Program-made: the position numbers and the translations under genes
Notes under the pieces: generated by a model
What the model was told of the DNA's origin: nothing
Seen by the model: only the letters and a program-made list of their open reading frames with translations
Database searches by the model: none
Assembly: GCA_030065075.1 (NCBI GenBank)
Contig: JASJDQ010000028.1
Span: 1-33,015, forward strand
DNA: 33,015 nt
Direction of reading: 5' to 3'
Source: Paracoccaceae bacterium
GTDB lineage: Bacteria; Pseudomonadota; Alphaproteobacteria; Rhodobacterales; Rhodobacteraceae
In this document: positions 3,011 to 22,225 of the stretch, piece by piece
Layout of the letters: every line of letters starts with the position of its first letter
Numbering within the stretch: the first letter of the stretch is position 1

Positions 3011-3019
3011 GGCGGGACC

Positions 3020-4720
3020 ATGGGGGTGGGCCAGCTAACAAAGCACATTCATAAGTTCGTCAGACGCGAGGACGGGACCCTTCTGGTCTTCTTCGCGGTC
3101 TGCACCATGACGATTCTGGGGATCGTCGCGCTGTCGTTCGATCTGGGCCGTCGCGCGGCGACACAGACAGACATGCAATCCTTCGTCGACAACGTTGCCC
3201 TCGCCTCTGCGGGCGAGCTTGACGGCGAACCGGATGCGATCACACGGGCCACGCGCGCAGCCACGGATGTGGTGGTCGCCGCAAATGACCAGTTGAAGTC
3301 AGGAACGGCGGGTCAGGACTACACGATGGCCCTTGATCAGATTGTCTTTTACGAGACGTTGCCAGCGGAAGATATGCCCAGTTCGCTCTCGACCAGCGTG
3401 CTCCGGACGGAAAAGTATCAGCTCCCCACAGCATCCACGACGACGGATCCGACGCTCGCGAACTTCGTTGGCATTCGCCTGACCTCGGTCGATGTCCCCT
3501 GGATTTTCGCCAGCATCTTCAGCCCGTCCGACCTGCCGGGCGAGGGTATCGGCGCCGTCGCGGTGGCGGGTCTTTCGGAATGGACTTGCGATATTGCCCC
3601 CCTGGCGTTTTGCCTGCCCAATGCGGGAGGATCGCCCTTGCCGGTTTTCCCAGGGCAGGCGATGTCGCTTACGACAGCGCTGCAGGGACAAACCTGGGGT
3701 GAGGGCGACTTCGGCTTCATCTCGGTGGACATTGATTCGGCGGGTGTCTGCGCGGGCATTCCTGACGCGGCCGGCCGCCTTGCTTGTCAGATCACCCTCG
3801 ATCGCCGGGTTGCGGCCTGCTTTCAGACCCGGCAGGCCGATGTCGAAACCGGCCAGCGCCCGGATCAGGAACTGGCGGCCTTCAACATGGCCTTCGATGA
3901 CTTTTCGGGCGCAATGATCCAGTTCTTCAACGATCCCCGCTATGCGCCGGGGCCGCACACCATCCGAGGGTTCGAGCCCGATCCCGGCGACATTTGTGTC
4001 CCCGGCGCGCCTTCCACGGATACAATGGCCTTTCCGCTTGATGACTGCCACACCTCGGGGACCTGCCTCGGTGGTGCCTACGGGGACGGAGACTGGTCGG
4101 AAGGGCGCGAAGAATACGTCGAGGTCAACTACGGGCTGGTGCTCGAAGACGACGATGGTGGCGACGACGGTGATGACGGCGGAATAATCGGTCTCGATGA
4201 CGGTACCTTCTTCGATTTCCCCGAAGCGGGCCTGTCGCGCTACCAGTACTATCTGCGCGAAATCGAGCGCGCAGAAAACGGTGGCGTCATGGATGCTGCA
4301 GGGGTGCCGCCCTATACCGGTTCCGTCTATCAGGTGGACAATGATGGAAGCGGCGAAGCGGTGGAGGATTACACCACATGGGACGACTTCTGGCCCGACA
4401 CATACGTCGGCTTGAACCCGATCATTCCGGATGCTCACGGCCGCTCTGAAAACGGTCTGCCGCAATGCAATACCGCCAACCTCGATCCGGACCGGGCAGA
4501 CCGGCGGGTCATGCTGGCTGCCGGTATCCACTGTCCGTCGTCCGGTGACGTGGTCACCGGCAACGACAGCGAAGTCAGGGCCGAAGCGTTCTATCGCGTC
4601 TTTCTTCTGGGGCCGGCAACGAACGAGATCGGTTTTCCGCCGACCTTCGACTTGAACGTCGAAGTGATCGAAGAAGTGGACATCACAACCGACCGCGAAG
4701 TGGTGCAGCTTTACCGATGA
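3020..4720 (+). CDS. TadG-like pilus assembly protein
   Basis: This 566-aa protein starts with the TadE/TadG-type signature. A basic N-terminus and REDGT are followed by a hydrophobic helix (about residues 22-41, LLVFFAVCTMTILGIVALSF) and the DLGRRAATQTDMQSFVDNVALASAGEL block typical of TadG-related proteins. The large remainder is a secreted domain with several cysteines, which may form disulfides. It includes a very Asp/Gly-rich linker at about residues 374-390 (LEDDDGGDDGDDGG). TadG-like proteins are membrane-anchored minor pilins or assembly factors of Tad pili. Its stop overlaps the next start by 4 bp (ATGA), so translation is probably coupled. The exact role is not known; the size and acidic loop suggest a surface-exposed or adhesive subunit. 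Confidence 0.8.
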   Translation: MGVGQLTKHIHKFVRREDGTLLVFFAVCTMTILGIVALSFDLGRRAATQTDMQSFVDNVALASAGELDGEPDAITRATRAATDVVVAANDQLKSGTAGQDYTMALDQIVFYETLPAEDMPSSLSTSVLRTEKYQLPTASTTTDPTLANFVGIRLTSVDVPWIFASIFSPSDLPGEGIGAVAVAGLSEWTCDIAPLAFCLPNAGGSPLPVFPGQAMSLTTALQGQTWGEGDFGFISVDIDSAGVCAGIPDAAGRLACQITLDRRVAACFQTRQADVETGQRPDQELAAFNMAFDDFSGAMIQFFNDPRYAPGPHTIRGFEPDPGDICVPGAPSTDTMAFPLDDCHTSGTCLGGAYGDGDWSEGREEYVEVNYGLVLEDDDGGDDGDDGGIIGLDDGTFFDFPEAGLSRYQYYLREIERAENGGVMDAAGVPPYTGSVYQVDNDGSGEAVEDYTTWDDFWPDTYVGLNPIIPDAHGRSENGLPQCNTANLDPDRADRRVMLAAGIHCPSSGDVVTGNDSEVRAEAFYRVFLLGPATNEIGFPPTFDLNVEVIEEVDITTDREVVQLYR

Positions 4721-5241
4721 ACTGGGCGCGCCGTCATAACTCGCATCGCTTTCGGGCAAGCGAACGGGGCGCCACGGCGGTCGAATTCGCCATTCTGATG
4801 CCCATCATGATGGTCTGCTTCGGAGCCATCGTCGAAGGTGCGCGCATCTATTGGAACTACCAAAGCGCCGTCAGCGGGGTTCGCGATGCGACCCGCTACC
4901 TTGCGCGCACGGTCGATCCCGCCATCTGCGGCGGTACGACCAACACAACGGCTGCCCCGCTTCCCGGCAGTGCGCTCGTCGATGCGCGAGAAATTATCCG
5001 GGAACACATCGGAACGGGCGAGACAAACCTTTTTCCTGTGGCTGTGCGAGTCGATGGCATCCGCGCCGAATACACCTGTCCCGATTTGAACTTGCGCGTG
5101 AACCCGACGCCCATCGCGCAGGTCGAGGCCCGGCTGATCGTGGATTTGCCATTCGGCACTGTCTTCGAGTTCTTCGGGAACCGATCCAACAGCCAGATGC
5201 AAAGCACGATCATAGACCAATCGCGGATTTACGGGCTATGA
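4717..5241 (+). CDS. tadE: TadE/TadG family minor pilin, first copy
   Basis: This 174-aa pseudopilin has a basic leader ending in SERG at residue 18. It is followed by ATAVEF (Glu23) and a hydrophobic helix (about residues 24-40), and then GARIYWNYQSAVSGVRDATRYLAR, the conserved TadE helix. The C-terminal domain has two pairs of cysteines. TadE proteins are processed by the prepilin peptidase and are needed for Flp fibre assembly. The gene overlaps its upstream neighbour and its downstream neighbour by 4 bp each (ATGA), so the three TadE/TadG genes form one translationally coupled set. Confidence 0.85.
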   Translation: MNWARRHNSHRFRASERGATAVEFAILMPIMMVCFGAIVEGARIYWNYQSAVSGVRDATRYLARTVDPAICGGTTNTTAAPLPGSALVDAREIIREHIGTGETNLFPVAVRVDGIRAEYTCPDLNLRVNPTPIAQVEARLIVDLPFGTVFEFFGNRSNSQMQSTIIDQSRIYGL

Positions 5242-5948
5242 CATGGCAGCGTTTGATATCGTTTGCGCGCCGCTTCCGGCGGTCCGAGGATGGGGCGTCG
5301 CTGATCGAGTATTCGATCGTTATCTCGCTGTTCCTGCTCGTCTTTTTTGCCATCCTCGATTTTGGGCGCCTCGGCTTCAACTGGGTAATGACGGAAAAGG
5401 CGATGCAACGTGCCGCGCGCATCGCGGTCGCACGTCCCCCCGTCTGCCCCGGCGTGCCCGAAACGCACGATCGTGGCACCCGGGTTTCAGCCAGATACGG
5501 CGATCTTTGTCGTGCCGGAGACAATATCTGCATGCCGGAGCCCGCGCAGGTCTGTCGGCTCAGCACCTCGACCATGCTGTCTGCGATGACCGACTACCAA
5601 ACGGACTGCCCGGCCGCCACGAATGCCGACACGGCAACGGAAATCTGGTGCATCATCTGGCCAATCCTGCCGTCCAACGCGACGCCGGCGAATGTCCAGG
5701 TTAGCTACAGCTTCGAAAAAAGTCTGGGCTTTCTTGGCGGACCATATACGCCTATTGTCGAAGTCTCGGTTGCGGACCTTCGGTTCAGCTTCATAACGCC
5801 GCTACCGGGACTTGCAGCCTTGGTCGGAGGCGGCGCTACGACTAACCTGTCAGAGGATGCGGACAGCAACGGGCAGGCCGACATAGCATTTCCGGACATG
5901 TCGGTGTCCATGCCGGCAGAAGATCTGAGCTTGGGGGGCAGGGGATGA
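5238..5948 (+). CDS. tadE: TadE/TadG family minor pilin, second copy
   Basis: The start is the ATG at 5238, which overlaps the previous stop (ATGA). The frame is open much further upstream, but that part is antisense-like shadow within the preceding gene. The 236-aa product has a leader ending in RSEDG at residue 19, the mature start ASLIEYS (Glu24, Tyr25), and a hydrophobic helix to about residue 40. The conserved DFGRLGFNWVMTEKAMQRAARIAVARPP helix follows. The rest is a secreted domain with many cysteines (about residues 74-140), likely disulfide-bonded. It should be a minor pseudopilin of the Tad pilus, working with the two TadE/TadG proteins encoded just upstream. cpaE begins 27 bp after its stop. 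Confidence 0.85.
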   Translation: MTWQRLISFARRFRRSEDGASLIEYSIVISLFLLVFFAILDFGRLGFNWVMTEKAMQRAARIAVARPPVCPGVPETHDRGTRVSARYGDLCRAGDNICMPEPAQVCRLSTSTMLSAMTDYQTDCPAATNADTATEIWCIIWPILPSNATPANVQVSYSFEKSLGFLGGPYTPIVEVSVADLRFSFITPLPGLAALVGGGATTNLSEDADSNGQADIAFPDMSVSMPAEDLSLGGRG

Positions 5949-5975
5949 TGCCCGTGGCATACGAAAGGGGCCAAA

Positions 5976-7172
5976 ATGGCTAGTGCGACATCGGTACTGC
6001 TGATTTCTGACGACCAGGGTGTCTCGAATGCCGTGAGCCTGGCGCTGTCGGACAAGCGCCGGGTCAAGCTCAGCTCCGAAAACCGATCCGTTGCCAGCAT
6101 GAATGGCACGGCGGTTCGCATGGCCGCCGAAAACGACATTGTCGTTTTCGCGACCGACCCCGGCAACCGCGAGGATCTGAACGCGATTCGCGCGCTCCAT
6201 GCCGAGCGGGGCGAAAACTCGATCTTCCTGGCGCTCACCGACCGCGACATCACGCTGGCGCGCGCACGGGCGCTTTCGGACGCGGGCGTCGACGATGTTC
6301 TGCCGTTCCCGGTCACCGGCGAAGAGCTGGGCCGTCAGATGGAGAAGTGGCTTCAGAAGGTCGCCAGCTCCAAGACCAGCGGTGGGCATGACGGATCGGT
6401 GATCGTTGTGTCCCAAGCGCGTGGCGGGATCGGCGCCACCACGGTTGCCGTGAACCTTGCCGACCAATTGCAGGCCCGCAAAGGCCGCTTCCGCCGGGGC
6501 CCCGCCAACAGCGTCGCCATCGTGGACCTCGACCTGCAGTTCGGCGCGGTCGGCGACTTTCTGGACATTGAGCCGCAGGAAGGTCTCATGCAGCTGGCCA
6601 CGGGCGATGTGATGCCGGACCAGATGTGGGTCGAACAATCGCTTGCGGATACGCCGGGCGGGCTCTCGGTTTTGGCAGCACCTGCAGATTTCATGCCGCT
6701 TGAAGCCATCAACGCCAAGCAGATCGAGTCGCTGATCGCAGCGCTCAGGGCAACGCATGATTACGTCGTGGTCGACATGCCGCGTGCCCTGGTTGACTGG
6801 ATCGAGCCGGTCATCAATTCAGCCGACGAAATCCAGATCGTGACCGATACAACGGTACCCTCCATCCGCGCCACGCGGCGGCTGATGGACTTCTATATGG
6901 CCGACAACCCGGGCCTTCAGATCGAGATCGTGATCAACCACGAAAAACGCCCGATGATGCAGGCCGCGCATCACAAAGAGGCCGCCCGGGTCCTCGAAAA
7001 GAAGTTCGAACACTGGCTGCCGCATGACCCAAAGGCCGCTCGCAACGCGGTCGATTTCGGGCGTCCGTTGTCTGAAGTGTCCCCGCGCTCTGATCTGGCC
7101 AAGGCAATCGGGCTTTTGGCACGTGGTACAGTCGCCCGCTTGTCCACCGGTGAACGGGCGAGCGCGTCGTAG
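5976..7172 (+). CDS. cpaE: Pilus assembly ATPase CpaE (TadZ), polar localisation factor
   Basis: This 398-aa protein has the two-part CpaE/TadZ layout. Residues 1-125 form an atypical receiver-like domain (LLISDDQG start, ending DVLPFPVTGEELG). Residues 140-360 form a MinD/ParA-like ATPase. The nucleotide loop at residues 149-156 is RGGIGATT, in which the usual lysine before TT is Ala154. A deviant P-loop is seen in this family. VAIVDLDLQFG follows, and VVVDMPR is the Walker-B region. CpaE localises the Tad machinery in the cell and interacts with the assembly ATPase. cpaF follows after 9 bp with a strong ribosome binding site. Confidence 0.9.
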   Translation: MASATSVLLISDDQGVSNAVSLALSDKRRVKLSSENRSVASMNGTAVRMAAENDIVVFATDPGNREDLNAIRALHAERGENSIFLALTDRDITLARARALSDAGVDDVLPFPVTGEELGRQMEKWLQKVASSKTSGGHDGSVIVVSQARGGIGATTVAVNLADQLQARKGRFRRGPANSVAIVDLDLQFGAVGDFLDIEPQEGLMQLATGDVMPDQMWVEQSLADTPGGLSVLAAPADFMPLEAINAKQIESLIAALRATHDYVVVDMPRALVDWIEPVINSADEIQIVTDTTVPSIRATRRLMDFYMADNPGLQIEIVINHEKRPMMQAAHHKEAARVLEKKFEHWLPHDPKAARNAVDFGRPLSEVSPRSDLAKAIGLLARGTVARLSTGERASAS

Positions 7173-7181
7173 GAGGTATGA

Positions 7182-8573
7182 ATGTTCAAGTCGTTTGGGA
7201 AATCGTCAGGGCCCGAGAAACCTGAAGCCGCCGAAGACGCCCCACCGGTTCAGGCCAGCGCCGTTGCGGCCGAAAAGGCGCTCCGTGCGCTGAACGCGAC
7301 CGATGCCAAGCTGACCGAACGCCTTGAACTGAAAAACCGTCTGCACACCGCGCTGCTTGAGCGCCTGAACCTTTCCGTCATCGACAAGGTCCAGACCGAG
7401 GAACTGCGTCGCGAAGTGGCCAATCTGGTCCAGCAGGTGCTGGCCGAAGAAAAGCGGCCGATGCGGACCGAGGACTTCAAGCAGATCGTCGATGAACTGA
7501 TGGATGAGGTGCTGGGTTTCGGCCCGCTCGAGCCGCTTCTGGCCGATCCGTCCGTGAACGACATCCTCGTCAATGGGCACTCGAACGTCTACATCGAACG
7601 CTTCGGCATTCTCGAAAAGACAACTGTCCGGTTCCGCGACGAGAGGCACTTGCTGCGCATCATCGACAAAATCGTCTCCTCCATCGGGCGCCGGATCGAT
7701 GAAAGCCAGCCCTGGGTCGACGCGCGCCTTGCCGATGGCAGCCGGGTCAACGCAATCATCCGGCCCTGCGCCATCGACGGGCCGTCGCTTTCGATCCGCA
7801 AGTTCTCCCGCAAGCCGATACTTCTGGAAAAGATGGTCGAGCTTGACTCGCTGACCACCCAGGCGGTGGACTTCCTGACGACGCTCGTGCAGGCGCGCAT
7901 GAATATCCTGATCTCGGGCGGCACCGGCTCGGGCAAGACGACGCTTCTCAATGCCATGAGCCGCGCCATCGAACCCCGCGAACGCATCGTCACCATCGAA
8001 GACGCCGCCGAACTGCAACTTCAGCAGGAACACGTCGTGCGCCTTGAAACCCGCCCGCCGACGCCATCGGGCACGGGGGCAATCATGCAGCGCGATCTGG
8101 TCAAGAACGCACTTCGGATGCGCCCTGACCGCATCATCGTGGGCGAGGTGCGGGGCGCCGAGACCTTCGACATGCTGCAAGCCATGAACACCGGTCACGA
8201 CGGCTCGATGACCACCGTCCACGCCAACACGGCGCGCGACGCGCTGGCGCGGATCGAACAGATGGTGACAATGATCGGGATCGATTTGCCGCTTTCGGCC
8301 ATCCGGTCCCAAATCGCCAGCGGGCTGAACTTCGTCGTCCAGCTCAACCGCATGTCCGATGGCAACCGCAAGGTCATGTCGATCAGCGAGATCACAGGCA
8401 TGGAAGGCGATACCATCATGATGCAGGACATCTTTGTCTTCAAAAGGCAGGGCAAGGATGAAAACGGCCGGGTCTTGGGAAAGCTGATGTCGACAGGCAT
8501 GCGCCCCCGCTGCGCCGAACAACTGATTGCCGCCGGCATCGATCTGGCGCCCCTGCAGATGGCGGGGGAATGA
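7182..8573 (+). CDS. cpaF: Flp pilus assembly ATPase CpaF (TadA)
   Basis: This 463-aa type II/IV secretion ATPase powers Flp pilin polymerisation from the cytoplasmic face of the inner membrane. The N-terminal helical domain (about 30-110) is followed by [20 protein letters not shown], the usual start of the CpaF core. The Walker A loop GGTGSGKTT is at residues 246-254 (Lys252). The Asp-box region is [15 protein letters not shown] (about 313-327), and the His-box region includes [21 protein letters not shown]. All expected motifs are intact and the length is normal. The ribosome binding site GGAGG lies 5 bp before the ATG. tadB follows after 3 bp, indicating one operon. Confidence 0.95.
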
Positions 8574-8576
8574 TCC

Positions 8577-9557
8577 ATGCAGTTGCCCGAGTTCCTGCAA
8601 ACCAACCTGAACGCCCAACTTCTGATCTACATCGGTTTGGTCATAGGCGTGCTTCTGGCTTTCGAGGGCCTCCGGCAACTGTTCTCGGGCCACGGGCGCC
8701 GCGAAGAAGCGCGCAGCCGCCGCATGCAGATGATCGCGAAGGGTGCCAGTACCGAAGAAATCCTCGCCATCCTGAAACCCGAGGAAAAGCAAACGCTGGC
8801 CAGCCGCATCCCCTTCGTGGGGGACCTGCCGACCGTTTTGCGTCAGGCGGGGGTCACCATGTCGTCGGGGGCCTTCCTGACGACCTCTTTTGTCGGTTTT
8901 GTTGCGGTCAGCTTGCTGTTCGCCCAGCTTTTCAATCCTGTTCTGGGCGTGCTTTTCGGCTTCGTGCTCTGCCTTGTGATCCCGCTGACAGCCGTCCGAT
9001 TGCAGCGGACACAGCGGATCAACGAGCTGGTCAAGCAGCTTCCGGACGCGCTGGACATGATGGCGCGCGGGCTTCGGGTCGGGCATCCGCTCAGCGCCTC
9101 GCTCGCTGCCGTCGCGAATGAAATGCCCGACCCCATCGGGACCGAGTTCGGCATCGTCGTCGACCAGGTCTCTTTCGGCGACGAACTGGTCGATGCATTC
9201 AACGAGTTCGCGGACCGGTTGAACCAGGAAGACATCCACTACCTGGCAACCGCCGTCGCCATTCAGCACGGCACCGGTGGCGATCTGGCCCGCGTTCTGA
9301 CGGTGCTCTCCAAGGTGATCCGCGATCGCCTGACAATGCGGCGCAAGGTGCAGGCGATCTCGGCCGAGGGACGGCTTTCGGCGGCCATCCTCAGCGTCGT
9401 TCCGGTGGTCATCTTTGTCGGGCTCAATCAGATGTCACCGTCCTACTACGGCGATATCGCTGATGAACCACTTGCCAAACCCCTGATCTTCATCGTGATC
9501 GCACTTGTCTTGCTGAACGCCTTCATCCTGCGCCGCCTCGTAGCCTTCAGGTTCTGA
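8577..9557 (+). CDS. tadB: Tad pilus inner-membrane platform protein TadB
   Basis: This 326-aa protein has an N-terminal membrane helix (about residues 15-35), a paired central hydrophobic segment (about 100-140) and a C-terminal helix region (about 260-325). These surround a cytoplasmic type II secretion F domain with the conserved LPDALDMMARGLRVGHPLSASL and the GGDLARVL motifs. TadB and TadC together form the PilC/GspF-like platform on which CpaF works. It sits between cpaF and tadC with only 3 bp on each side, the usual order for Tad loci. Confidence 0.92.
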   Translation: MQLPEFLQTNLNAQLLIYIGLVIGVLLAFEGLRQLFSGHGRREEARSRRMQMIAKGASTEEILAILKPEEKQTLASRIPFVGDLPTVLRQAGVTMSSGAFLTTSFVGFVAVSLLFAQLFNPVLGVLFGFVLCLVIPLTAVRLQRTQRINELVKQLPDALDMMARGLRVGHPLSASLAAVANEMPDPIGTEFGIVVDQVSFGDELVDAFNEFADRLNQEDIHYLATAVAIQHGTGGDLARVLTVLSKVIRDRLTMRRKVQAISAEGRLSAAILSVVPVVIFVGLNQMSPSYYGDIADEPLAKPLIFIVIALVLLNAFILRRLVAFRF

Positions 9558-9560
9558 CGC

Positions 9561-10556
9561 ATGGTCCAGTGGCTTCTGAACATATTCCCGGCACTTGATA
9601 GCCAGGCCAACCTCATCCTGATGGTGGGCGTCGGGATCGGGATGATGCTGTTCGTCTATGGCGCCTTCGATGTGCTCACACCCTCGAACCCGGCGGCACG
9701 CCGCTATCGGCGCGACGGGTCGGGCGAGCGGCGGAGCAATTTTGACGCCGGCATCCTCTACAACCCCGAGGTCGACCCCAAGGGCCTGATGAAGGCGCTT
9801 CTGCCAGGTGACCGAAACGAACGTTCGAAACTAAAGCGCGATCTGCGCAACGTCGGTTTCGTCGGTCCAAACGCCATTGTGCGTTACTTCCTGCTGCGCG
9901 TGGCGCTGGGCGTGGGGCTGCCGCTGGTCTTCGTCGCTGTGATCATGCTTCGCCGTGCGGGCTTTCCGATGCCCGATGATCTGGTCTGGGCGATCGACAA
10001 CACGCCGCGGCTTGTCATGTTGCAGATCGTAACCGCCCTGGCGGGGGTCGGTTTCTTTGCACCCGCGCTTTGGCTCCACCAACGCGTTAACGCGCGCCGC
10101 CGCCAGATCGAAGAAAGCTTTCCGAACGCGCTCGACCTGATCCAGATTTCGGTCGAGGCGGGCCTGGGCTTCGATGCCGCCATGACGCGTGTCGCCAACG
10201 AAATGGTGCATTCGGCACCCGAACTCTGCCGGGAATTCCGGATGGTACAGTTGGAGATCTCGGCCGGTGGCGAGCGCGAGAAAGCGCTCATGGACATGGC
10301 CAAGCGCACCAATGTGGACGAGGTGAATTCCTTCGCCAATGTCGTGCTGCAATCCGTGCGCTTCGGCACGTCCATGTCAGATGCGCTTCAGATCTACGCT
10401 GGCGAAATGCGCCTGGCACGGGAATTGAACGCGCAGGAAAGAGCGAACAAGCTTCCAGTGAAAATGTCTGCGGTCATGTCGGCTCTGATGCTGCCCGCGA
10501 TGATCCTTCTGATCGTCGGGCCGGTCGTTATTCGCTGGATGAACACCTTCGGTTGA
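9561..10556 (+). CDS. tadC: Tad pilus inner-membrane platform protein TadC
   Basis: This 331-aa protein is the TadB partner. It has an N-terminal helix (about residues 17-38), two central membrane helices (about 108-130 and 151-172) and a C-terminal helix ending VIRWMNTFG. The type II secretion F domain carries FPNALDLIQISVEAGLGFDAAM and the NSFANVVLQSVRFGTSMSDAL block. TadC closes the structural part of the operon. No TadD (TPR lipoprotein), secretin or prepilin peptidase follows; the next gene is a LuxR-type regulator after 293 bp. Confidence 0.92.
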   Translation: MVQWLLNIFPALDSQANLILMVGVGIGMMLFVYGAFDVLTPSNPAARRYRRDGSGERRSNFDAGILYNPEVDPKGLMKALLPGDRNERSKLKRDLRNVGFVGPNAIVRYFLLRVALGVGLPLVFVAVIMLRRAGFPMPDDLVWAIDNTPRLVMLQIVTALAGVGFFAPALWLHQRVNARRRQIEESFPNALDLIQISVEAGLGFDAAMTRVANEMVHSAPELCREFRMVQLEISAGGEREKALMDMAKRTNVDEVNSFANVVLQSVRFGTSMSDALQIYAGEMRLARELNAQERANKLPVKMSAVMSALMLPAMILLIVGPVVIRWMNTFG

Positions 10557-10849: not shown

Positions 10850-11725
10850 GTGGGGAGAGGTTTGCGCGACGACAAGGCCATATCCGGGGACGGAACTTCC
10901 ATACCCGATCTGACAGTTCTGGACGGCATTGCAAGTTGGTGCGGCGGTCTGCACGGCTCTATGCCGCTGTCCGAAGCGCTGCAAGCCCTGGCGTCCGGTC
11001 TCGGCGCATCGGCGGCCGCTATCTCTCGGCATCATTACCGGTCTGAAGAATTGGCACGAACGGTGGCTCTCTATTCCGGTCAGATGCGCCGACCGTTGCG
11101 TCGCAGTTTCGGACAGGATGTGCTTGGCTACCTCTATGGCACCGAACGGTTGGGCTCTGTGATCTTCATGGGCGATCTGCTGGGGGACCCGCAATGGAGC
11201 GTGTCGCCGGCCCTCCGGTCCTGGATGAGCTCCAAGGTGATCCACGAGATCGCGGTCATCCCCTTGGCGCGGACCCGAAACCACGTCGATTTCATCGAAT
11301 TTCACTTCGACCATGTGCTTGACCGGACGGCCTACAACGATCTGGAGCGCCTGGTGCCGACCATCATGCGATCCTGGAACGGGCGGAAGCCCGGGCTGGT
11401 CACCCATTCGCTGATCGATGAACGAATTGCGATCGCGCATGCGCCAGCAGCCGACCGCAAGCCCGCGCAAGATGAACCGCTGTTGGGCGTCTCAAACCCC
11501 GCGCGGCTCAGCCGGGCCGAGTTCCGCGTGTGCCTGATGTTGTCGCGAGGTCTGTCGGTCAAAGGCGTGGCCGAAGCGCTGAGCCTGTCGGAAAACACTG
11601 TCCGCTCGCATCTGCGCGCGATCTACTCCAAGACCGATACGTCGAACCTGGCCGAATTGATGTATTGCATCCTGTCGGTCGGGCGTCCCGAAGACGAAAC
11701 CGAATATCGGTTCGGAACGCGGTAG
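10850..11725 (+). CDS. LuxR-type helix-turn-helix regulator next to the Tad operon
   Basis: This protein of up to 291 aa has a C-terminal LuxR/GerE DNA-binding domain at about residues 219-275 (LSRAEFRVCLMLSRGLSVKGV, then LSLSENTVRSHLRAIYSKTDTSNLAEL). The N-terminal about 200 residues look like a PAS/GAF-type sensory fold, but no typical acyl-homoserine-lactone-binding signature is obvious. The start is uncertain. A GTG at 10850 opens the frame, but a TTG at 10862 is preceded by a GGGGAGAGG ribosome-binding-like sequence and may be the true start. The position after tadC suggests control of pilus expression or a related surface programme. That role is inferred from context only. Confidence 0.8.
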   Translation: MGRGLRDDKAISGDGTSIPDLTVLDGIASWCGGLHGSMPLSEALQALASGLGASAAAISRHHYRSEELARTVALYSGQMRRPLRRSFGQDVLGYLYGTERLGSVIFMGDLLGDPQWSVSPALRSWMSSKVIHEIAVIPLARTRNHVDFIEFHFDHVLDRTAYNDLERLVPTIMRSWNGRKPGLVTHSLIDERIAIAHAPAADRKPAQDEPLLGVSNPARLSRAEFRVCLMLSRGLSVKGVAEALSLSENTVRSHLRAIYSKTDTSNLAELMYCILSVGRPEDETEYRFGTR

Positions 11726-11848: not shown

Positions 11849-14800
11849 TCAAAGGTCGATCGTGATCTCGCCGTTCGCCGCCGCCGCACGCGATTGGCAG
11901 AGGATTATGTTCGTCTTCCGCTGCGCCTCTGACAGAACGAAATCGCGGTGCTCGACCTCGCCCTCCAGAAGCCCACATTTGCACACCCCGCAAAGCCCGT
12001 CCGAACATTTGACATCGATGGCGATACCGTGCTCGGTCAGAACATCTGTTGCGGATTTGTCCGCTGGCACGTCGAAGCTTTGTCCGGACCGCGCCAGATG
12101 CAGGGTGAACGCGTGGTTCTCGTACTCGGGCAACACGGGTACCGCGAAATACTCCAGATGCCGCGCCTCTTCAGGATAGCCTGCGGCCTCCGCTCCTTCC
12201 ATCACCGCCGCCATATAAGCGTCTGGCCCACAGGTATAGACATGCGCGCCCGGCACGTAGGCGCCCAGAATGGTGTCCAGATCGGCGCGCGTGCCTTCGT
12301 CCGAGACATGAAGGTGCACACGGTCCGCCCAAGGCACCTTCGCCAAACAATCGGCAAACGCCGCATTCGAGCGGGTGGGAACGGAATAGTGCAACGTGAA
12401 GTCCTTGCCCAAGGCGTGCAGACGATGCCCCATTGCCACCATTGGCGTCACGCCGATCCCACCGCCCATCAGAAGCGTCTTCGATGCGTCCTCTGCCAGC
12501 GGGAAGTGGTTGATCGGGCGCGATAAGAACACGCGCCGATTTTCGGTGAAGATGCGATGTATCAGTTTCGATCCACCCCGCCCGTCGTCTTCGCGCAGGA
12601 CGGCGATCTGGTACCTGGAACGGTCCGCCGGATCGCCCGACATCGAATACTGGCGCAGAAACTCGGGCGCGACCACGATGTCCAGATGCGCGCCCGCCTC
12701 CCAGGCCGGCAGTTCGCCGCCATCGGGCGCTTGGAATTCGTAAAGCGTGATGTCGTCCGAGAGTTTCTCGGCCCGACTCACGACCACGCGCAAGACCGGA
12801 CTGTCGGCATGACTTGGCACCTCATGGGCCAGCCCCTTTGTATCGCCGCGATCCAGCCGTGCACGGTATTCCTCGGGCGTTAGCATCTCGCGGTATGCCT
12901 GAATGCCCGCCTCGCGATCCATCGGGAAGGGATAGGGCCAAGGCGGTGGCGTCAACGGCGCGGGATAGACGGCGAGCGTCTGGTCTTCGTAGCGCAAATC
13001 CAGATCCCGTTGCAGATCGCGAGCATTCACGGGGTGACGCGCCGGGCGATAGCCGCCGTCCTCCTCGATCTCCAGATCCCACCACCATTTCTTCACCGGG
13101 TTCAGCCCACCATTGCCGACCATATCGTCGAGTTTGGCCAGTGCGGGTGCGAGCTTGGGCACATTCATCGCCGCCCAGCGGAAGGGCCGTTCGGCAAAGA
13201 GCCCGTCAAGGTTCCAGGGGCAGGTCTTCATGCAGCGCCCGCACATGGCACCACCCTCGGTCGTGATCCGGTAGGTGGCGCAGCGTTGACTGTCGGACTT
13301 CCAGATCTCGTAGCCGTTGAACATCAGCTTCGGCCCGGCCGTGATCGCACCGCTGGGACACTCGCGGGCGCATTTGGTGCAGGCCTCGCAAAAGGATTGC
13401 AGCCCGAAGTCGATGGGCTTGTCATGGGCCAGCGGCATGTCCGTCGTGACAACGCCGGACTTAAGACGCGGGCCAAGGAAGGGGTTCAGGATCACCTCGC
13501 CGATCCGGCTGACTTCGCCCAGCCCCGAGATCAGCAACAAGGGCGGCTGCAACACGTCGCCATCCAGCACGGTATGCGCCTTCGCTTTGTAGCCCAAGCG
13601 CCTGATCTGCTTGGCAATTATCCCGCCCAGAAGCGAGAACCTTAGGTACGCGCGCATCGACTGCGCGACCGAAATCCAGTCGTCGCCGCTGGCGCCTTCC
13701 ATCGTCTCGAAGCCTTGATCGACGATGACGGAAATCGCGTTGTCATGGGGCGGATCGATGGGTGTGCCCGTGGCGTCATGGCTGTACCACGCCCACTCGG
13801 GACACCGGCTGATGCCCACTGCATCGCAGCCGAGGAAATAGGCCGCGGCCTTGACGTTCTCGGCGTTCCGCTCGGCATCGGTGGGGCGCAGGTCGCCCTC
13901 GGCAGCCCCGTCCTGCAAAAGGACAAACGCGCCCAGCATCCGCCGCTGCGCCATCGAGGGCGCGGCCTTCCGCGCATAATGCCCGCCCTTGGCGTTGTCC
14001 TGCAAGCTCTTCCCCATGTCGCCGAACTGCGCGCGGGCGAACATGTCTGTCCGTTTCGGCACGCGCGGCACGCGTGGTTCGTCGATGAAGGTCGTGGGAT
14101 CATCGACGCGCTTCAGCGTCTCGAACGGATGCGGACCCTGAACATAGTAGCGTTTCTTGTAAGGATCGCGGTCCATGCCGCTTTTTCGCGTGCCATAGCC
14201 CAGCCACCACTTCCACCCCAGCGTCGGCTGCTCCATCGCCAGCGGCTGGTCGGACGCCAGTTCGAACGTCGTGGTGACGACGGCCAGACCGAAACGAACG
14301 CCCAGGAAGGGGTTGGTCGGCACACCATCCACCGGCAGGGCCAACCCGGCCTCAATCGCCAGCCGGTTCAGATCAACATCCGAGGATGTCACCGTGTGCG
14401 CCTTGGCGTCCCAGCCTAGAAGCCGGATGTAGTTGGCCAGGATGACCGCAACCTCGGTTGACCGCAGCGCCGCACGGGCCGCCTGTGCGTCTTCCAGCCA
14501 CGCCGTGCCGACCTCGCCCTTGTCCGGGTCGCGCGGCATCTCGGTCAGGAAGACCAAAGCATGGGTGTGGCCTTCCACCGTGGAGGGCGGAGCCTCCATC
14601 GACTCCTTCAGATCCGCCATGATCAGATCGATGCCGCTCGCCAACGTCTTCGTCTGACGCGTTCTCAGCTCCTCTGCCAGACGGTCGATGTCGGGGTTGC
14701 GCACCGGCTCCGCCAGATGCGCCTCGCGCGGCAGGACGCAAATCCCGACCATACTGATGTCTTCGAAATACCCGAAAGCTTTCAGATGGTTGGCGCGTTC

Positions 14801-15040
14801 GGTTGGATCGGCTGGGCACTCGGCCCGCGCCATGTTCACCAGCCCGTCGCGGATCGCATCCATGCAGGCTTGATACTCGGCCATGGCATTCACCAGCGCC
14901 TCCGGTGCCTCGGGACGGCGGAAGGAAAGCGGTTCGAAGGCGGGAAGTTCGGCCAGCACTGGCGCGTCCTGCCGTGCGAGACGCTCCAAGGGGTAGGGGC
15001 CAAGATGAACGGGACGTTTGGCGTCGGAAAAGAGGCGCAT
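11849..15040 (-). CDS. Self-sufficient reductive dehalogenase-like protein (corrinoid, 2x[4Fe-4S], flavin reductase, [2Fe-2S] fusion)
   Basis: This 1063-aa protein joins two modules. Residues 1-660 resemble the cytoplasmic catabolic reductive dehalogenases (NpRdhA/BhbA type). A CX2CX2CX3CP cluster lies at Cys551, 554, 557 and 561, and a second cluster uses Cys587, 600, 603 and 607. The corrinoid-type half occurs twice (about 200-268 and 474-543). Residues 745-965 are a ferredoxin-reductase-like domain with RQYSMSG (796-802), GGGIGVTPMVAM and YTCGPDAYM. Residues 975-1063 are a plant-type [2Fe-2S] ferredoxin (Cys1012, 1017, 1020, 1048). No Tat signal or RdhB anchor is seen, so it should act in the cytosol, drawing electrons from NAD(P)H. 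Known relatives remove ortho halogens from phenols or hydroxybenzoates; the substrate here is unknown. The ATG at 15040 lacks a clear ribosome binding site. An epoxyqueuosine reductase (QueG) is excluded by length and fusion. Confidence 0.85.
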   Translation of the reverse strand: MRLFSDAKRPVHLGPYPLERLARQDAPVLAELPAFEPLSFRRPEAPEALVNAMAEYQACMDAIRDGLVNMARAECPADPTERANHLKAFGYFEDISMVGICVLPREAHLAEPVRNPDIDRLAEELRTRQTKTLASGIDLIMADLKESMEAPPSTVEGHTHALVFLTEMPRDPDKGEVGTAWLEDAQAARAALRSTEVAVILANYIRLLGWDAKAHTVTSSDVDLNRLAIEAGLALPVDGVPTNPFLGVRFGLAVVTTTFELASDQPLAMEQPTLGWKWWLGYGTRKSGMDRDPYKKRYYVQGPHPFETLKRVDDPTTFIDEPRVPRVPKRTDMFARAQFGDMGKSLQDNAKGGHYARKAAPSMAQRRMLGAFVLLQDGAAEGDLRPTDAERNAENVKAAAYFLGCDAVGISRCPEWAWYSHDATGTPIDPPHDNAISVIVDQGFETMEGASGDDWISVAQSMRAYLRFSLLGGIIAKQIRRLGYKAKAHTVLDGDVLQPPLLLISGLGEVSRIGEVILNPFLGPRLKSGVVTTDMPLAHDKPIDFGLQSFCEACTKCARECPSGAITAGPKLMFNGYEIWKSDSQRCATYRITTEGGAMCGRCMKTCPWNLDGLFAERPFRWAAMNVPKLAPALAKLDDMVGNGGLNPVKKWWWDLEIEEDGGYRPARHPVNARDLQRDLDLRYEDQTLAVYPAPLTPPPWPYPFPMDREAGIQAYREMLTPEEYRARLDRGDTKGLAHEVPSHADSPVLRVVVSRAEKLSDDITLYEFQAPDGGELPAWEAGAHLDIVVAPEFLRQYSMSGDPADRSRYQIAVLREDDGRGGSKLIHRIFTENRRVFLSRPINHFPLAEDASKTLLMGGGIGVTPMVAMGHRLHALGKDFTLHYSVPTRSNAAFADCLAKVPWADRVHLHVSDEGTRADLDTILGAYVPGAHVYTCGPDAYMAAVMEGAEAAGYPEEARHLEYFAVPVLPEYENHAFTLHLARSGQSFDVPADKSATDVLTEHGIAIDVKCSDGLCGVCKCGLLEGEVEHRDFVLSEAQRKTNIILCQSRAAAANGEITIDL

Positions 15041-15228
15041 GAGGCGACGTTAGAGGAACGGGCGCAGTCCTGCCAGAGGGCGAATTCCAGCGCATTTGCG
15101 CGGTCACGGAAGCAATGTGGCGCATCTCGAATTCCGCGTCACATACTCTCCATTTTATTGCAGCCTCTTGCGTTTGCCCTCTGCTGTACGCGTGCTAGCC
15201 TTTCGCTAACCCAACCGGAGGAACCTGG

Positions 15229-18196: not shown

Positions 18197-20002
18197 TTAG
18201 GGCAGCAATATCTCCACGATCGGCGGCCAGACCAGCATCACCGACAACGCCAGAAGCTGGATGCAGATGAACGGCAGGAAGCCCCGGAAGATATCCGTCA
18301 GCGAGATATGCGGTGGAGCAACCGACTTCAGATAGAAGGCCGCCGGACCGAAGGGCGGCGACAGGAAGCTCACCTGCATGTTCATACAGAACAAGACCCC
18401 GAACCAGACGCTGACATACTTCGGATCAAGCTGACCGATGAAACCGATTTCTTCGATGGGAAGCCGCTTCACGATGGGCAGGAACACCGGGATGATCAGC
18501 AGCACGATCCCCACCCAGTCCATGAAGGCGCCCATGAACAGAAGGATCAGCATCATCATCAGCAAAACCAGCATCGTCGGCATCTCGGAGCCCACGATCA
18601 TGTTCGCGATGAACGTCGGTCCGCCCGCCAGCGTATAGGCGCCCGCCAGCGCCGCGGCACCAATGGTGACCCAGATGATCGTGCCCGTGGACCTGAGCGT
18701 TCGCATCAACCCGTCCCAGACCAGAGGCACTTTTCCCGGAGCGCGCATGCACCAGTAGAAGAACATGATGATGAACGGGACAGAGGCCCAGACCGCCGTA
18801 CTCTCCCCGCCGATGACGGTCGCCAGCGCCCACGAGAGCGCCGAGGTTGCCAGCAGCACGGCGAATATCTTGACGATATTCTCGGCGACGAAGGCTTTCC
18901 ATTCGTCCCAACTGCGATCCATGATGATCGAGATCAGAAAGACCGCCAACGCGCCCATGCCCGCCGCTTCGGTGATCCCGGTGATCCCTCCATAAATCGA
19001 GCCAAGCACGACCCCGATGATCGTGAAGGGGGCCACCAGACCCTTCCCGTATTTCCACCCGAGCGCGCAGCGTTTCTGGCCAAAGACCAATATCGCAAAG
19101 GCCACGAACCCGGCCAGCCAGGCCGCAATCCACGGGATATGATAGGGCATCCCCAGACTGATCGGGTCTTCGCCTTCCTCGACCAGATACTGCCCGGTCA
19201 CGAAGAAGAAGAGGGCGCGCAGTAAAAGCACACCTGCCGCCGAAGCGCCCATGATCGTCAGAAACGCCCCGAAAAGCGCACCCTTGTGCATCCCGTCCGT
19301 TTCATGCGCCTTCTTCTCGGGCAGGGGCGCCTGGCTTGGGTCCAGGTTCACCCGGATCAGGATGTAGATGATGATGAACGACGCCAGCATGAAGCCCGGA
19401 ATGAAGGCCCCCGTGAACAGGTTCTTGATCGATGTTTCCGTGATCAGGCCATAGATGATCAGCACGATCGACGGCGGAATCATCGTCCCCAAGGACCCGG
19501 ACGCACAGATCGTGCCGATAGCCAGGTTCTGATTGTACCCCAGTCGCAGCATCTGCGGCAGCGCGATCAGCCCCAGAAGCACGACCTCACCGCCGATGAT
19601 CCCCGACATCGCCGCCATGATAACGGCCATCAGCGAGGTCACGACCGCAATGCCGCCCCTCACGGACGACAGCCAATAGTCCAGCGCGTCATACATGCCC
19701 TTCGCAATGCCCGACCGTTCCAAAAGCGCTGCCATGAAGATGAAGAGGGGCACCGACAACAGCACATATTCTGTCATCAGATCGAATATCTTCTGCGTCA
19801 GGATGTATAAGGGCCCCGTGCCCGGGCGCCCGGTCAGAAGCCCTTCGCCAAAGGTCGACGGGTCCAGAAGCACATTGGGCTCGAACTTCATGACCATGAC
19901 GACAAGTGCAAGGAAGGCCGAGGCATAGCCCAAGGGCATGCCGATGGCCAAAAGGAAGATCAGTCCACAAACAAGGACGATCGAGATTGTGCCGATATCC
20001 AT
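18197..20002 (-). CDS. dctM: TRAP transporter large permease subunit (DctM), long form
   Basis: This 601-aa, highly hydrophobic protein has the DctM family pattern: FLLAIGMPLGYASAFLA near the N-terminus, VPLFIFMAALLERSGIAKGMY, GIIGGEVVLLGLIALPQM, and GSLGTMIPPSIVLIIYG. The C-terminal half has FLSPPFGPAAFYLKSVAP. Classical DctM is about 425 aa; the extra length lies mainly in the middle (about residues 225-330) with added hydrophobic segments. Such long forms are known among TRAP transporters. It forms the secondary-transport channel with DctQ, driven by a cation gradient and fed by DctP. Its start overlaps the dctQ stop by one base (TAATG), showing coupled translation. Confidence 0.92.
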   Translation of the reverse strand: MDIGTISIVLVCGLIFLLAIGMPLGYASAFLALVVMVMKFEPNVLLDPSTFGEGLLTGRPGTGPLYILTQKIFDLMTEYVLLSVPLFIFMAALLERSGIAKGMYDALDYWLSSVRGGIAVVTSLMAVIMAAMSGIIGGEVVLLGLIALPQMLRLGYNQNLAIGTICASGSLGTMIPPSIVLIIYGLITETSIKNLFTGAFIPGFMLASFIIIYILIRVNLDPSQAPLPEKKAHETDGMHKGALFGAFLTIMGASAAGVLLLRALFFFVTGQYLVEEGEDPISLGMPYHIPWIAAWLAGFVAFAILVFGQKRCALGWKYGKGLVAPFTIIGVVLGSIYGGITGITEAAGMGALAVFLISIIMDRSWDEWKAFVAENIVKIFAVLLATSALSWALATVIGGESTAVWASVPFIIMFFYWCMRAPGKVPLVWDGLMRTLRSTGTIIWVTIGAAALAGAYTLAGGPTFIANMIVGSEMPTMLVLLMMMLILLFMGAFMDWVGIVLLIIPVFLPIVKRLPIEEIGFIGQLDPKYVSVWFGVLFCMNMQVSFLSPPFGPAAFYLKSVAPPHISLTDIFRGFLPFICIQLLALSVMLVWPPIVEILLP

Positions 20003-20916
20003 TAGTCGTCGCCCTTCGGATGCGTTTTCTGAATGCTGCCGCGGGTGACATCCAAATCCCCTACGCCCTCGTCGCCCACGGCGCGCTTGATCGCCTCAAG
20101 CTCGTCTTCGTCGATGTCATCTGCGGCCGTGTGGATGACCGGCTCGGCGTTCCAATCCGAAAACAGGTTCGCGACAGCCTGCAACGCGATAAGCACGATC
20201 ATGATCAGCACGAAAGGTTGAATGGTCGATGGTATCGGTGGATCGAAGGCCGTGCCGAACGTCTCCCATCGATAGAACTTCACGGCGAAAACTTGATTAT
20301 AGCTGCCGAACACAAGACCGACGGCAAAGACACAGATCAAGAACGTCCAGATGATGTCGAAGACCCGCTGCATCCAACGGGGCACAACATCATAAAGCAG
20401 AAAGATGCGGATATGGCTCCGCTGCTGCATCGCGTATAGCCCGGAACTCAGGAAGACGAAGCCTCCGATCCACAGCGTCAGTTCGTTGGCCCAAAGGGTA
20501 GGGGCCTCTATCGCATATCGCAGGAAGACTTCGTACAGCATGACCCCTGTCATCGCGAGGATCAGCATCATCGTCACTCGGCCGATGAAAATGGCGAACC
20601 GATCCCTGCCGCGCCAGTCCTGGAACTCCATATGGGCAACGCTGAAGGTGCGCATGCCGATTATGGCCAGAACCGGCATCGCAATCAGCGACAGCCAGTC
20701 GATGGGGTCGGCGAAACCTCCGAAAAGCCCCGGCATATTGGGCGTCACATCCTTTTTCAGATGGATCGCGCTCGTCTGCGCGTACAGGCTTTCATTGGAC
20801 GACGGCAGGAAATCCAGAATGAACGCTGGCAGATGCCAGACGAACCAGCCAGCGGCCAACACGAAGACAAATGGCACGATCCATTCGATCCATGTCCCGG
20901 TTTTCTCGGACATCAC
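20002..20916 (-). CDS. dctQ: TRAP transporter small permease subunit (DctQ), extended
   Basis: This 304-aa protein has a DctQ-type four-helix core at about residues 105-255. It includes FIGRVTMMLILAMTGVMLYE, the conserved EAPTLWANELTLWIGGFVF segment and two later helices. The typical DctQ length is 160-200 aa. The extra part is an N-terminal extension of about 100 residues with two further hydrophobic segments (about 11-37 and 74-92), plus an acidic C-terminal tail (about 260-304). It pairs with the similarly enlarged DctM next door, which fits a co-evolved long-form pair. It starts 10 bp after the MR/MLE gene, in the same transcription unit. Confidence 0.88.
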   Translation of the reverse strand: MMSEKTGTWIEWIVPFVFVLAAGWFVWHLPAFILDFLPSSNESLYAQTSAIHLKKDVTPNMPGLFGGFADPIDWLSLIAMPVLAIIGMRTFSVAHMEFQDWRGRDRFAIFIGRVTMMLILAMTGVMLYEVFLRYAIEAPTLWANELTLWIGGFVFLSSGLYAMQQRSHIRIFLLYDVVPRWMQRVFDIIWTFLICVFAVGLVFGSYNQVFAVKFYRWETFGTAFDPPIPSTIQPFVLIMIVLIALQAVANLFSDWNAEPVIHTAADDIDEDELEAIKRAVGDEGVGDLDVTRGSIQKTHPKGDD

Positions 20917-20926
20917 TTCCCCTCCC

Positions 20927-22093
20927 TTATGCCGCCCGATACCGGGCGAGGACAGCGCGATCGGGCTCCACCCCCAACCCGGGGCCTGTCGGCACCGGCA
21001 CGCGTCCTTTGTTGTTTTTCACATGCTGTTGAATATTCAGCGGTTCCGTCAAGAGTTCATCGCGAAAAGCATTGTGTGTAGTGTCGAATTCCAACATTGG
21101 CTCCCACGGGTACAGACCACCCGGCAAGGGCGGCATGGCGGCCAACAGGTGCAGGTTCGTGGCCACCGCGACGGCGCTGCCCCAGACATGGTTCACAACC
21201 GGCGTGAAGTGGGCATGGGCAAGCGCCAGCACGCGCTGGTATTCGGTGATACCTCCCAGGGCACAGACTTCGGGTTGCGCGATGTCCAATCCCCGGTTCT
21301 CCAGAATGGCGCGCCAGCCCCAGCGGTTGAACTCGGCCTCGCCACCCGAGATGTTGACCTTCAGCCCGGCGCGCAATTCGCGATAGCCGTCAAGGTCCTC
21401 GGGCGCGACCGGTTCTTCGAACCAGTAGGCGTCCAACGCCTCCAATGCGCGGCCCACCACAAAGGCATCCGCCGTTGTGTAGCAATGGTTGGCATCCACC
21501 ATGAACCGGAAGTCATCGCCCACGCCGCGGCGCACGGCCTCGGCCAGGCGTATGTCGTCCTTCGGGCCAAGTCCGACCTTCATCTTGGTCGCGGCAAAGC
21601 CCGCCTCCCGGATCGCCGCCGCCTCATCCACAAACCTGGCCGCCAGATCGGCGACCGGCTCGGGGCGCAGCATCATGCCATAGCCGTAAACCGGCACATC
21701 GCTCCGATGCGCACCACCCAAAAGATTGTAAACCGGCTGCCCCGTCGCCTTGCCCGCAATGTCCCAAAGCGCGATGTCGACACCGGACAAGGACTGCAAC
21801 GGCATCCCCTTCTGCCCATGATCCCGCATCAGGTTGTAAACCTTGTGCCAGATTACATCGCGCGCCATCGGGTCCATCCCCAGCACCATCGGCTGGATCA
21901 CCCCTTCGACGATGCCCTTGTTGGCCCGCGCAATGGCGCCCGGACCGAAGCATTCGCCCCAACCGGTCACGCCCTCATCCGTTTCCACTTCCACCAGATG
22001 GGCAGACCGCTTGGTGTAATACTGCTGCGAATAGCCCAGCACCTCGGGCAGGTCATATTCCAGCAGGTGGGATTTGATGCGCGTGATCTTCAA
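20927..22093 (-). CDS. Mandelate racemase/muconate lactonizing enzyme family protein (acid sugar dehydratase type), first
   Basis: This 388-aa enolase-superfamily enzyme has an N-terminal capping domain (1-125) and a TIM-barrel domain. The catalytic features are KMK at 170-172, metal ligands Asp200, Glu226 (in WFEEP) and Glu252 (SGGE), and an Asp270/His302 dyad (NHVWG). This layout is that of the mandelate racemase subgroup. It abstracts a proton alpha to a carboxylate with Mg2+ and most often dehydrates sugar acids. It lies between dctP and the TRAP permease genes, so its substrate is probably the imported acid or a near product. The exact substrate cannot be assigned; a racemase or epimerase is possible. 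Confidence 0.88.
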   Translation of the reverse strand: MKITRIKSHLLEYDLPEVLGYSQQYYTKRSAHLVEVETDEGVTGWGECFGPGAIARANKGIVEGVIQPMVLGMDPMARDVIWHKVYNLMRDHGQKGMPLQSLSGVDIALWDIAGKATGQPVYNLLGGAHRSDVPVYGYGMMLRPEPVADLAARFVDEAAAIREAGFAATKMKVGLGPKDDIRLAEAVRRGVGDDFRFMVDANHCYTTADAFVVGRALEALDAYWFEEPVAPEDLDGYRELRAGLKVNISGGEAEFNRWGWRAILENRGLDIAQPEVCALGGITEYQRVLALAHAHFTPVVNHVWGSAVAVATNLHLLAAMPPLPGGLYPWEPMLEFDTTHNAFRDELLTEPLNIQQHVKNNKGRVPVPTGPGLGVEPDRAVLARYRAA

Positions 22094-22108
22094 TGCAATG
22101 CCTGGACG

Positions 22109-22160
22109 TTCTTCTTGGCAGAAATATCCCGGAGGGGCCCGGGGAGGCAGAGCCTCCCCG
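22109..22160 (+). repeat. Intergenic hairpin repeat, copy C
   Basis: TTCTTCTTGG then GAAATATCCCGGAGGGG leads into GGGGAGGC-AGA-GCCTCCCC, a perfect 8-bp stem (22141-22159). It lies between dctP and the MR/MLE gene. Its orientation is opposite to transcription of these genes, unlike the other three copies. Next to it is the canonical dctP terminator. It shares the AAATATCC core with copies A, B and D. Confidence 0.7.
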
Positions 22161-22174
22161 GCGAAACCTCTCTA

Positions 22175-22202
22175 GAAAAAACGGGGCCCGAAAGGGCCCC
22201 GT
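22175..22202 (-). terminator. Rho-independent terminator after dctP
   Basis: On the - strand, ACGGGGCCC-TTTC-GGGCCCCGT forms a perfect 9-bp GC-rich stem with a 4-nt loop, followed directly by TTTTTTC. It starts 23 bp past the dctP stop codon. This is a textbook intrinsic terminator, placed between the binding-protein gene and the MR/dctQ/dctM genes. It would keep dctP mRNA above the membrane-subunit mRNA. Confidence 0.9.
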
Positions 22203-22225
22203 CAAAGTCCCACCGGTTCGAGTGA

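Follow-up and report, generated by a model that had tools for sequence, protein, structure and literature searches.

Which reaction would a reductive dehalogenase carry out in a marine alphaproteobacterium, and what would its host gain from it? This question is raised by an open reading frame (ORF) at positions 11849..15040 of a stretch of 33,015 nucleotides from a Paracoccaceae bacterium (assembly GCA_030065075.1, contig JASJDQ010000028.1), which was analysed at its full length and is here called the window. Judged by its sequence and by analogy with related enzymes, the encoded protein is very probably a catabolic reductive dehalogenase that is cytoplasmic and self-sufficient, as known from BhbA (Comamonas sp. 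7D-2) and JtRdhA (Jhaorihella thermophila), which would debrominate and deiodinate phenol-like compounds.

Gene, domains and active-site residues

The ORF is complete and real: it starts with ATG, fills exactly the positions given above and encodes 1063 amino acids (aa) on the minus strand. A preliminary description of this DNA had reported the same single ORF without stating a strand. On the plus strand of the same positions, the first frame is interrupted by stops. Relatives in many genomes span residues 1–1063 without inner stops, and we thus conclude that the ORF is not a chance one. The start codon furthermore agrees with NpRdhA, the reductive dehalogenase of Nitratireductor pacificus, whose first residues align to residue 1 of the window protein. 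The G+C content of the gene (63.5%) slightly exceeds the values of seven other genes in the window (59.1–61.7%), and its third-position G+C content (77.6%) lies inside their range (72.5–81.7%). Thus, nothing marks the gene as a recent arrival.

Domain and motif searches agree with the layout proposed in the preliminary description, that is, a reductive dehalogenase module with two [4Fe-4S] clusters, a reductase for flavin and reduced nicotinamide adenine dinucleotide (phosphate) (NAD(P)H) and a [2Fe-2S] ferredoxin. The whole protein scores 195.8 bits against TIGR02486 (reductive dehalogenase; cut-off 160.35), with residues 432–642 as the best stretch, and a domain search places Fer4_16 (4Fe-4S) at residues 551–610 and Fer2 (2Fe-2S) at 981–1052. 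The two [4Fe-4S] motifs, CEACTKCARECP at 551 and CGRCMKTCP at 600, follow the patterns CxxCxxCxxxCP and CxxCxxxCP, respectively. The motif scan also detected CSDGLCGVC at 1012, as well as RQYSMSG at 796 and GGGIGVTP at 859, which we take to be the sites for flavin mononucleotide (FMN) and nicotinamide. The best solved relative by sequence is NpRdhA (E 2.9e-170). For the C-terminal third, which is separated from the [4Fe-4S] region by a linker, phthalate dioxygenase reductase (2PIA) is among the best matches (residues 748–1062, E 2.9e-59). A feature beyond the proposed layout is a degenerate second copy of the corrinoid-binding domain at residues 78–267. This copy gives a second match to TIGR02486 (28.7 bits) and aligns to the protein's own stretch 381–560 with a score of 167, whereas none of 200 shuffled sequences scored above 50.

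The active-site residues are retained as well. In NpRdhA, residues F291, S422, M423, Y426, K488 and R552 are conserved in the active site, and Y426, K488 and R552 have been named for substrate binding and catalysis (PMC10463259). They align with F334, S461, M462, Y465, K527 and R591 of the window protein, where F334 lies upstream of the catalytic corrinoid domain. All six are unchanged in every one of the 86 fusion proteins compared, which comprise the window protein, 80 named loci and five plasmid copies, taken from the eight with a query coverage of at least 80%; two truncated relatives that were examined retain them as well. Of the cluster cysteines, all twelve (eight for [4Fe-4S] and four for [2Fe-2S]) are invariant in the same 86 fusions, and the eight are also present in NpRdhA.

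The preliminary description had noted neither a signal for twin-arginine translocation (Tat) nor a membrane anchor, and our scans agree: no Tat-like RRx[FL] motif was found in the first 60 residues, and the window protein has no strongly hydrophobic segment, as no 19-residue stretch lies above a Kyte-Doolittle value of 1.32. No rdhB membrane anchor gene was recognised by eye among the translated window ORFs, for which no RdhB family search was made.

Table 1. Features of the dehalogenase gene and of its flanks, in window coordinates.
Feature	Position	Strand	Basis or remark
Self-sufficient reductive dehalogenase gene, rdhA-type	11849..15040	minus	ORF from ATG, 1063 aa
Vestigial duplicate of corrinoid-binding domain, residues 78–267	14240..14809	minus	Second TIGR02486 match and self-alignment
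Catalytic corrinoid domain, residues 380–545 (limits approximate)	13406..13903	minus	S461, M462, Y465 and K527 aligned with NpRdhA
Two [4Fe-4S] motifs (CEACTKCARECP, CGRCMKTCP), C587 and R591; residues 551–607	13220..13390	minus	Fer4_16, motifs, alignment
FMN/NAD(P)H-binding reductase domains, residues 745–966 (limits approximate)	12143..12808	minus	2PIA-type; RQYSMSG, GGGIGVTP
[2Fe-2S] ferredoxin domain, residues 978–1063	11852..12109	minus	Fer2; C1012, C1017, C1020, C1048
LuxR-family regulator gene	10850..11725	plus	Convergent with the dehalogenase gene; retained at this place in the closest relatives only
Intergenic region between the dehalogenase gene and the divergent binding-protein gene	15041..15228		Alignment of the window and four relatives

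Fold, relationships and distribution

A structure model of residues 1–740, built from 81 alignment rows, has a predicted template-modelling score (pTM) of 0.83. The model matches NpRdhA chains with Z up to 33.4 (2.8 Å over 612 residues, spanning model residues 1–691), compared to Z of 17.2–20.5 for respiratory dehalogenases and of 10.8 at best for QueG. The QueG match is aligned over residues 78–299 and thus falls on the vestigial domain, so that the catalytic domain can hardly be judged by this lower Z. The predicted local distance difference test (pLDDT) is low at residues 322–343, 496–516, 561–586 and elsewhere in this model. Of the structural check suggested in the preliminary description, the NpRdhA-like fold has therefore been obtained, whereas the pocket segments have low pLDDT and the model supports the fold only, not the pocket. 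A full-length model (1063 aa, 24 rows) was poor (pLDDT 64.3, pTM 0.52) and was not used.

To place the protein among its relatives, we inferred a tree of 44 rows (30 of the 89 fusion or truncated rows and 14 others), with the QueG of the host as root. The window protein, NpRdhA, BhbA and other fusions form a clade of 30 rows (support 98/98), and reductive dehalogenases with a Tat-like motif (L148, L161 and L165), short cytoplasmic ones and QueG all lie outside this clade. In this tree, the program treekit flagged long branches as well as joins that are doubtful, also beside the clade of the window protein. In a rebuild of 41 rows that omits the long-branch rows QueG, L148 and L175, the 30-row clade was found again (100/99), with the short and Tat-type enzymes outside. 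Thus, the tree and the TIGR02486 score both agree with the BhbA/NpRdhA type named in the preliminary description, according to which a position with QueG or another non-dehalogenase group would have spoken against a dehalogenase.

Within this clade, the window protein belongs to a group of 25 rows (99/99 with 44 rows and 100/100 with 41 rows) that leaves BhbA and the protein of Nitratireductor OM-1 outside. It pairs with a Silicimonas metagenome-assembled genome (MAG) in the 44-row tree (100/99) and groups with Silicimonas and Meinhardsimonia rows in the 41-row tree (96/91). The nearest named relatives are thus Silicimonas MAGs, and as Silicimonas belongs to the Rhodobacterales, this fits the alphaproteobacterial host that had been proposed. 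Protein identity is 79.7% to the fusion of locus L031, 72.2% to that of Ruegeria sp. TM1040 and 71.4% to that of Roseobacter sp. MED193; it is 52.2% to BhbA over 1060 aligned positions and 45.2% to NpRdhA over 569. Three MAG contigs labelled Granulosicoccaceae or Geminicoccaceae (L078, L098 and L091) carry fusions that are nested among those of Rhodobacterales and Hyphomicrobiales, which reflects either intergroup transfer or mis-binned contigs.

The type had been described as rare, which our survey does not bear out. We sampled 394 genomes of the host family (393 genera) and counted a fusion as near full length when its match, among the matches listed, starts at residue 5 or before and ends at residue 1033 or after. 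Such a fusion is present in at least 143 of the 393 other genomes, and over one third of the genera sampled carry the fusion. Matches at E 1e-30 or better occur in 224 of the 394 genomes, some covering the reductase part only, and five further family genomes contain incomplete copies. A near-full-length fusion, counted by hand in a sample of 397 other genomes from across the phylum, is found in 14 of the 26 other same-family genomes compared to 1 of the 371 other genomes, and there are two truncated relatives within the class. Within the genus, four of five genomes carry the fusion, the host's own included, and one of these copies consists of residues 1–339 at an apparent contig end. A second RdhA-family protein of ~330–450 aa without a Tat-like motif occurs in 7 of the 14 fusion-bearing other same-family genomes of the phylum-wide sample (L164, L169–L173 and L175).

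Previous studies have described bhbA homologues as widely distributed in the Roseobacter clade (PMC13101508), have noted an alphaproteobacterial rdhA cluster corresponding to bhbA (PMC3939436) and have reported reductive dehalogenase genes in 7.8% of Alphaproteobacteria (PMC6299228). The window gene itself is not described in the titles and abstracts of the open-licence literature searched, where the name Silicimonas was always combined with 'genome'.

Reaction and role in the host

JtRdhA (WP_104007082), whose host Jhaorihella also belongs to the Rhodobacterales, is a purified enzyme that removes bromine and iodine from phenols with NADPH, the oxidation of which is coupled 1:1 to substrate reduction (PMC10463259). 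It contains FMN (0.53), ~9.4 Fe and base-off cobalamin (0.4), and a Y-K/R pair has been proposed as proton source (PMC10463259). We carry these properties over to the window protein because of its family membership, and its cofactors, electron path and halogen preference are thus proposed by analogy with JtRdhA and NpRdhA. NADPH would reduce FMN in the C-terminal reductase, from which electrons would pass singly via the [2Fe-2S] domain and the two [4Fe-4S] clusters to a base-off cobalamin on the second, catalytic corrinoid domain. The reduced cobalt species would strip bromide or iodide ortho to the phenol, with Y465, backed by K527/R591, as the presumed proton donor. The first corrinoid domain is probably a structural remnant that substitutes for the partner subunit of dimeric respiratory enzymes.

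Two other kinds of enzyme have to be weighed against such a dehalogenase. The protein might be a B12-dependent reductase with a non-halogenated substrate that is similar to QueG and merely resembles a dehalogenase. RdhA and QueG are indeed both class III B12 enzymes (PMC10463259), and the wide spread within the family could suggest a common non-halogenated substrate. However, all six NpRdhA active-site residues are retained, and the patchy presence among the other same-family genomes of the phylum-wide sample is unlike that of a housekeeping gene. In the profile searches that had been proposed earlier, the score above the cut-off for RdhA stands against 23.3 bits for the QueG family TIGR00276 (cut-off 200). 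The tree sets the window protein apart from QueG, whose branch is very long, and a separate, true QueG is encoded on contig C137 of the host assembly (441.2 bits). We thus reject QueG itself as the identity of the protein and consider a non-halogenated substrate very improbable. Even less credible is a respiratory reductive dehalogenase for anaerobic energy conservation, which would share the RdhA superfamily with the window protein and of which one example, PceA, is a weaker relative. The window protein has neither a Tat-like motif nor a hydrophobic segment, whereas L148, L161 and L165 carry a Tat-like motif, and it contains an internal duplicate domain. Because the Tat motif is missing and an NAD(P)H reductase is fused to the chain, the respiratory enzyme was rejected.

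If the protein is a catabolic dehalogenase, the host offers routes for its products. The host assembly, which is 83% complete, contains one RdhA. It also contains cobN (1023.9 bits, over the cut-off), which belongs to the aerobic B12 route, as well as genes for protocatechuate 3,4-dioxygenase alpha and beta (pcaHG), a 3-oxoadipate enzyme, homogentisate dioxygenase (hmgA) and fumarylacetoacetase. Since both protocatechuate and homogentisate ring cleavage are present, the products of debromination could enter the usual breakdown of aromatic compounds. We therefore lean, by a modest degree, towards a nutritional role, in which the host would debrominate or deiodinate natural marine halophenols and then use the products under air by the homogentisate or protocatechuate pathways.

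The same chemistry may instead be protective, in that toxic or signalling halophenols from algae or animals would be dehalogenated and their carbon left unused. We give this role a smaller but still appreciable probability. It would suit a solitary gene whose commonest neighbour family occurs in 12 of the 80 named loci and whose Pfam neighbours are mixed, a host assembly with no pobA over the cut-off, and the wide range of bromo- and iodophenols that JtRdhA accepts (PMC10463259). Nutrition is favoured over protection by the pcaHG and hmgA/fumarylacetoacetase genes of the host, by the relatives in Comamonas 7D-2 and Nitratireductor OM-1 that sit with protocatechuate ring-cleavage genes, and by the growth of E. 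coli W with JtRdhA on 3-bromo-4-hydroxyphenylacetate (PMC10463259).

As to the substrates, JtRdhA prefers bromophenols that bear a para-carboxyl or para-acetate group: 3,5-dibromo-4-hydroxybenzoate and 3-bromo-4-hydroxyphenylacetate are the best, compared to 6.8% of the maximum for 2,6-dibromophenol (PMC10463259). This preference suggests breakdown products of the bromotyrosine type as natural substrates. Our best guess, which is a conjecture by analogy, is thus para-acid halophenols, for instance 3-bromo-4-hydroxyphenylacetate and bromo-4-hydroxybenzoates. Plain bromophenols, as put forward in the preliminary description, are not the strongest candidates.

Several observations weigh against a halophenol dehalogenase that feeds catabolism. 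In both structure models, pLDDT is low over the catalytic segments and those of the clusters, so that neither model depicts the corrinoid pocket itself. Chlorinated substrates are not turned over by JtRdhA, and the chloro-analogues tested only inhibit it (PMC10463259). No halo-aromatic genes were recognised beside the window gene, and the pathway link is thus indirect. Furthermore, no pobA (4-hydroxybenzoate hydroxylase) was found over the cut-off in the host assembly, which at its completeness is weak evidence of absence.

More generally, the fusion might be an entry gate by which aerobic marine bacteria feed bromotyrosine-type aromatics into the homogentisate and protocatechuate pathways, which would make these bacteria one of the main routes of the marine bromine cycle under air. 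We regard this as a tentative and rather doubtful extension. If it is true, both this role and the extent of it would be new, whereas the kind of enzyme is known. The useful part of our results is the scale and the setting, that is, the family-wide spread, the changing neighbours and a host with cobN and ring-cleavage genes. With these, what marine Rhodobacterales debrominate, and why, can be put to the test in named strains, for example Ruegeria sp. TM1040.

Neighbourhood and comparison with known systems

That the gene stands alone, as stated in the preliminary description, is consistent with our comparison of loci, where the neighbours vary; no conserved partner gene of the dehalogenase was found among the 80 named loci. 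The LuxR-family gene on one side (Table 1) might regulate the dehalogenase, which is a conjecture. On the other side lies a divergent gene for a family-5 solute-binding protein. Orthologues of both flank the dehalogenase only in L031, L032 and L036 of the 80 loci. When the window and four relatives are aligned (the piece of L005 was cut loosely), they share a single short block of the intergenic region close to the binding-protein gene, and this block may serve as promoter of that gene. The same alignment contains no clear operator for the dehalogenase.

The commonest neighbour families among the 80 loci, three adjacent families including LamB/YcsF, reach 12 loci at most. In the Pfam tallies, from which 6 (upstream) and 10 (downstream) of the 80 loci were dropped because the neighbour was incomplete, no family accounts for more than 7 of the adjacent genes on either side (74 upstream, 70 downstream). 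LuxR-type regulators of any kind are adjacent upstream in 6 of 74 and downstream in 2 of 70 loci, and LysR-type regulators upstream in 6–7 of 74. As each type occurs in few loci, we conclude that regulators differ between loci. Jannaschia M317 and Aminobacter SS-2016 each have a MarR regulator gene next to the dehalogenase. A second B12 enzyme, class II B12-dependent ribonucleotide reductase, is encoded directly downstream in 2 of 70 loci, probably by chance. On the Jannaschia M317 plasmid (L112, 17416–19047), a protein of 543 aa that is annotated as pyridoxamine 5'-phosphate oxidase family is encoded four genes beyond the dehalogenase; in its C-terminal half it is similar to the reductase module, with 32% identity over 238 aa.

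Elsewhere in the window, positions 18197–27183 contain a TRAP (tripartite ATP-independent periplasmic) transporter, two enolase-superfamily genes, a short-chain dehydrogenase/reductase (SDR), a zinc alcohol dehydrogenase and an FCD/GntR regulator, which together read as a cluster for sugar-acid uptake and catabolism. Matches to mandelate racemase/muconate lactonizing enzymes at 20927–22093 and 25266–26363 were not taken as an aromatic pathway because of the company of the TRAP transporter, SDR, alcohol dehydrogenase and GntR genes. The translations of 2162–10556 presumably represent a Tad/Cpa pilus operon, and those of 27236–33006 what we take to be an Mnh/Mrp-type sodium-proton antiporter.

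Among the known systems, Ros_A3X954 of Roseobacter sp. MED193 is also an RdhA-superfamily protein without a Tat signal from a roseobacter host, and it debrominates 2,6-dibromophenol; however, its clusters lie at 283–345, much closer to the chain start, and unlike JtRdhA it is reported to be highly oxygen-sensitive (PMC13101508). The proteins of L164 and L169 have exactly its motifs (CDICTKCADACP/CAICMRVCP-type), comprise 391–416 aa with no reductase and belong to another branch of the tree. MED193 also carries a fusion of 1069 aa (L049). As the cluster positions and motifs of Ros_A3X954 misfit this protein, we rejected Ros_A3X954 as an orthologue of the fusion, and since it represents another branch, we do not use PMC13101508 as functional evidence. 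A short enzyme of this type (~400 aa) was also rejected for the window protein, which has 1063 aa and the CEACTKCARECP/CGRCMKTCP motifs and lies on a different branch.

NpRdhA (4RAS, 6ZXU) shares with the window protein the vestigial and catalytic corrinoid domains, the six key residues and the eight cluster cysteines, but it is of the truncated type without a fused reductase (PMC10463259). The window protein has this reductase in its C-terminal third, and the truncated type was thus rejected. Of the BhbA/NpRdhA layout in the preliminary description, the comparison with BhbA holds whereas that with NpRdhA does not, and the right comparators are BhbA and JtRdhA. BhbA (plasmid pBHB, locus L114) is a full-length fusion with the same active site; its gene lies in a plasmid cluster with genes for protocatechuate 4,5-dioxygenase, a transporter and a porin, whereas the window gene is solitary. 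JtRdhA, by its published description, is similar in its single chain with a duplicated corrinoid domain, two [4Fe-4S] clusters, an FMN/NAD(P)H reductase and a [2Fe-2S] cluster, in having no Tat signal, in its marine Rhodobacterales host and in the same named active-site residues. The difference is that JtRdhA is a purified and assayed enzyme whereas the window protein is predicted from its sequence. Thus, the type of enzyme is already known, as both the architecture and NADPH-driven debromination have been demonstrated for JtRdhA (PMC10463259), and the window adds a member from the Silicimonas lineage.

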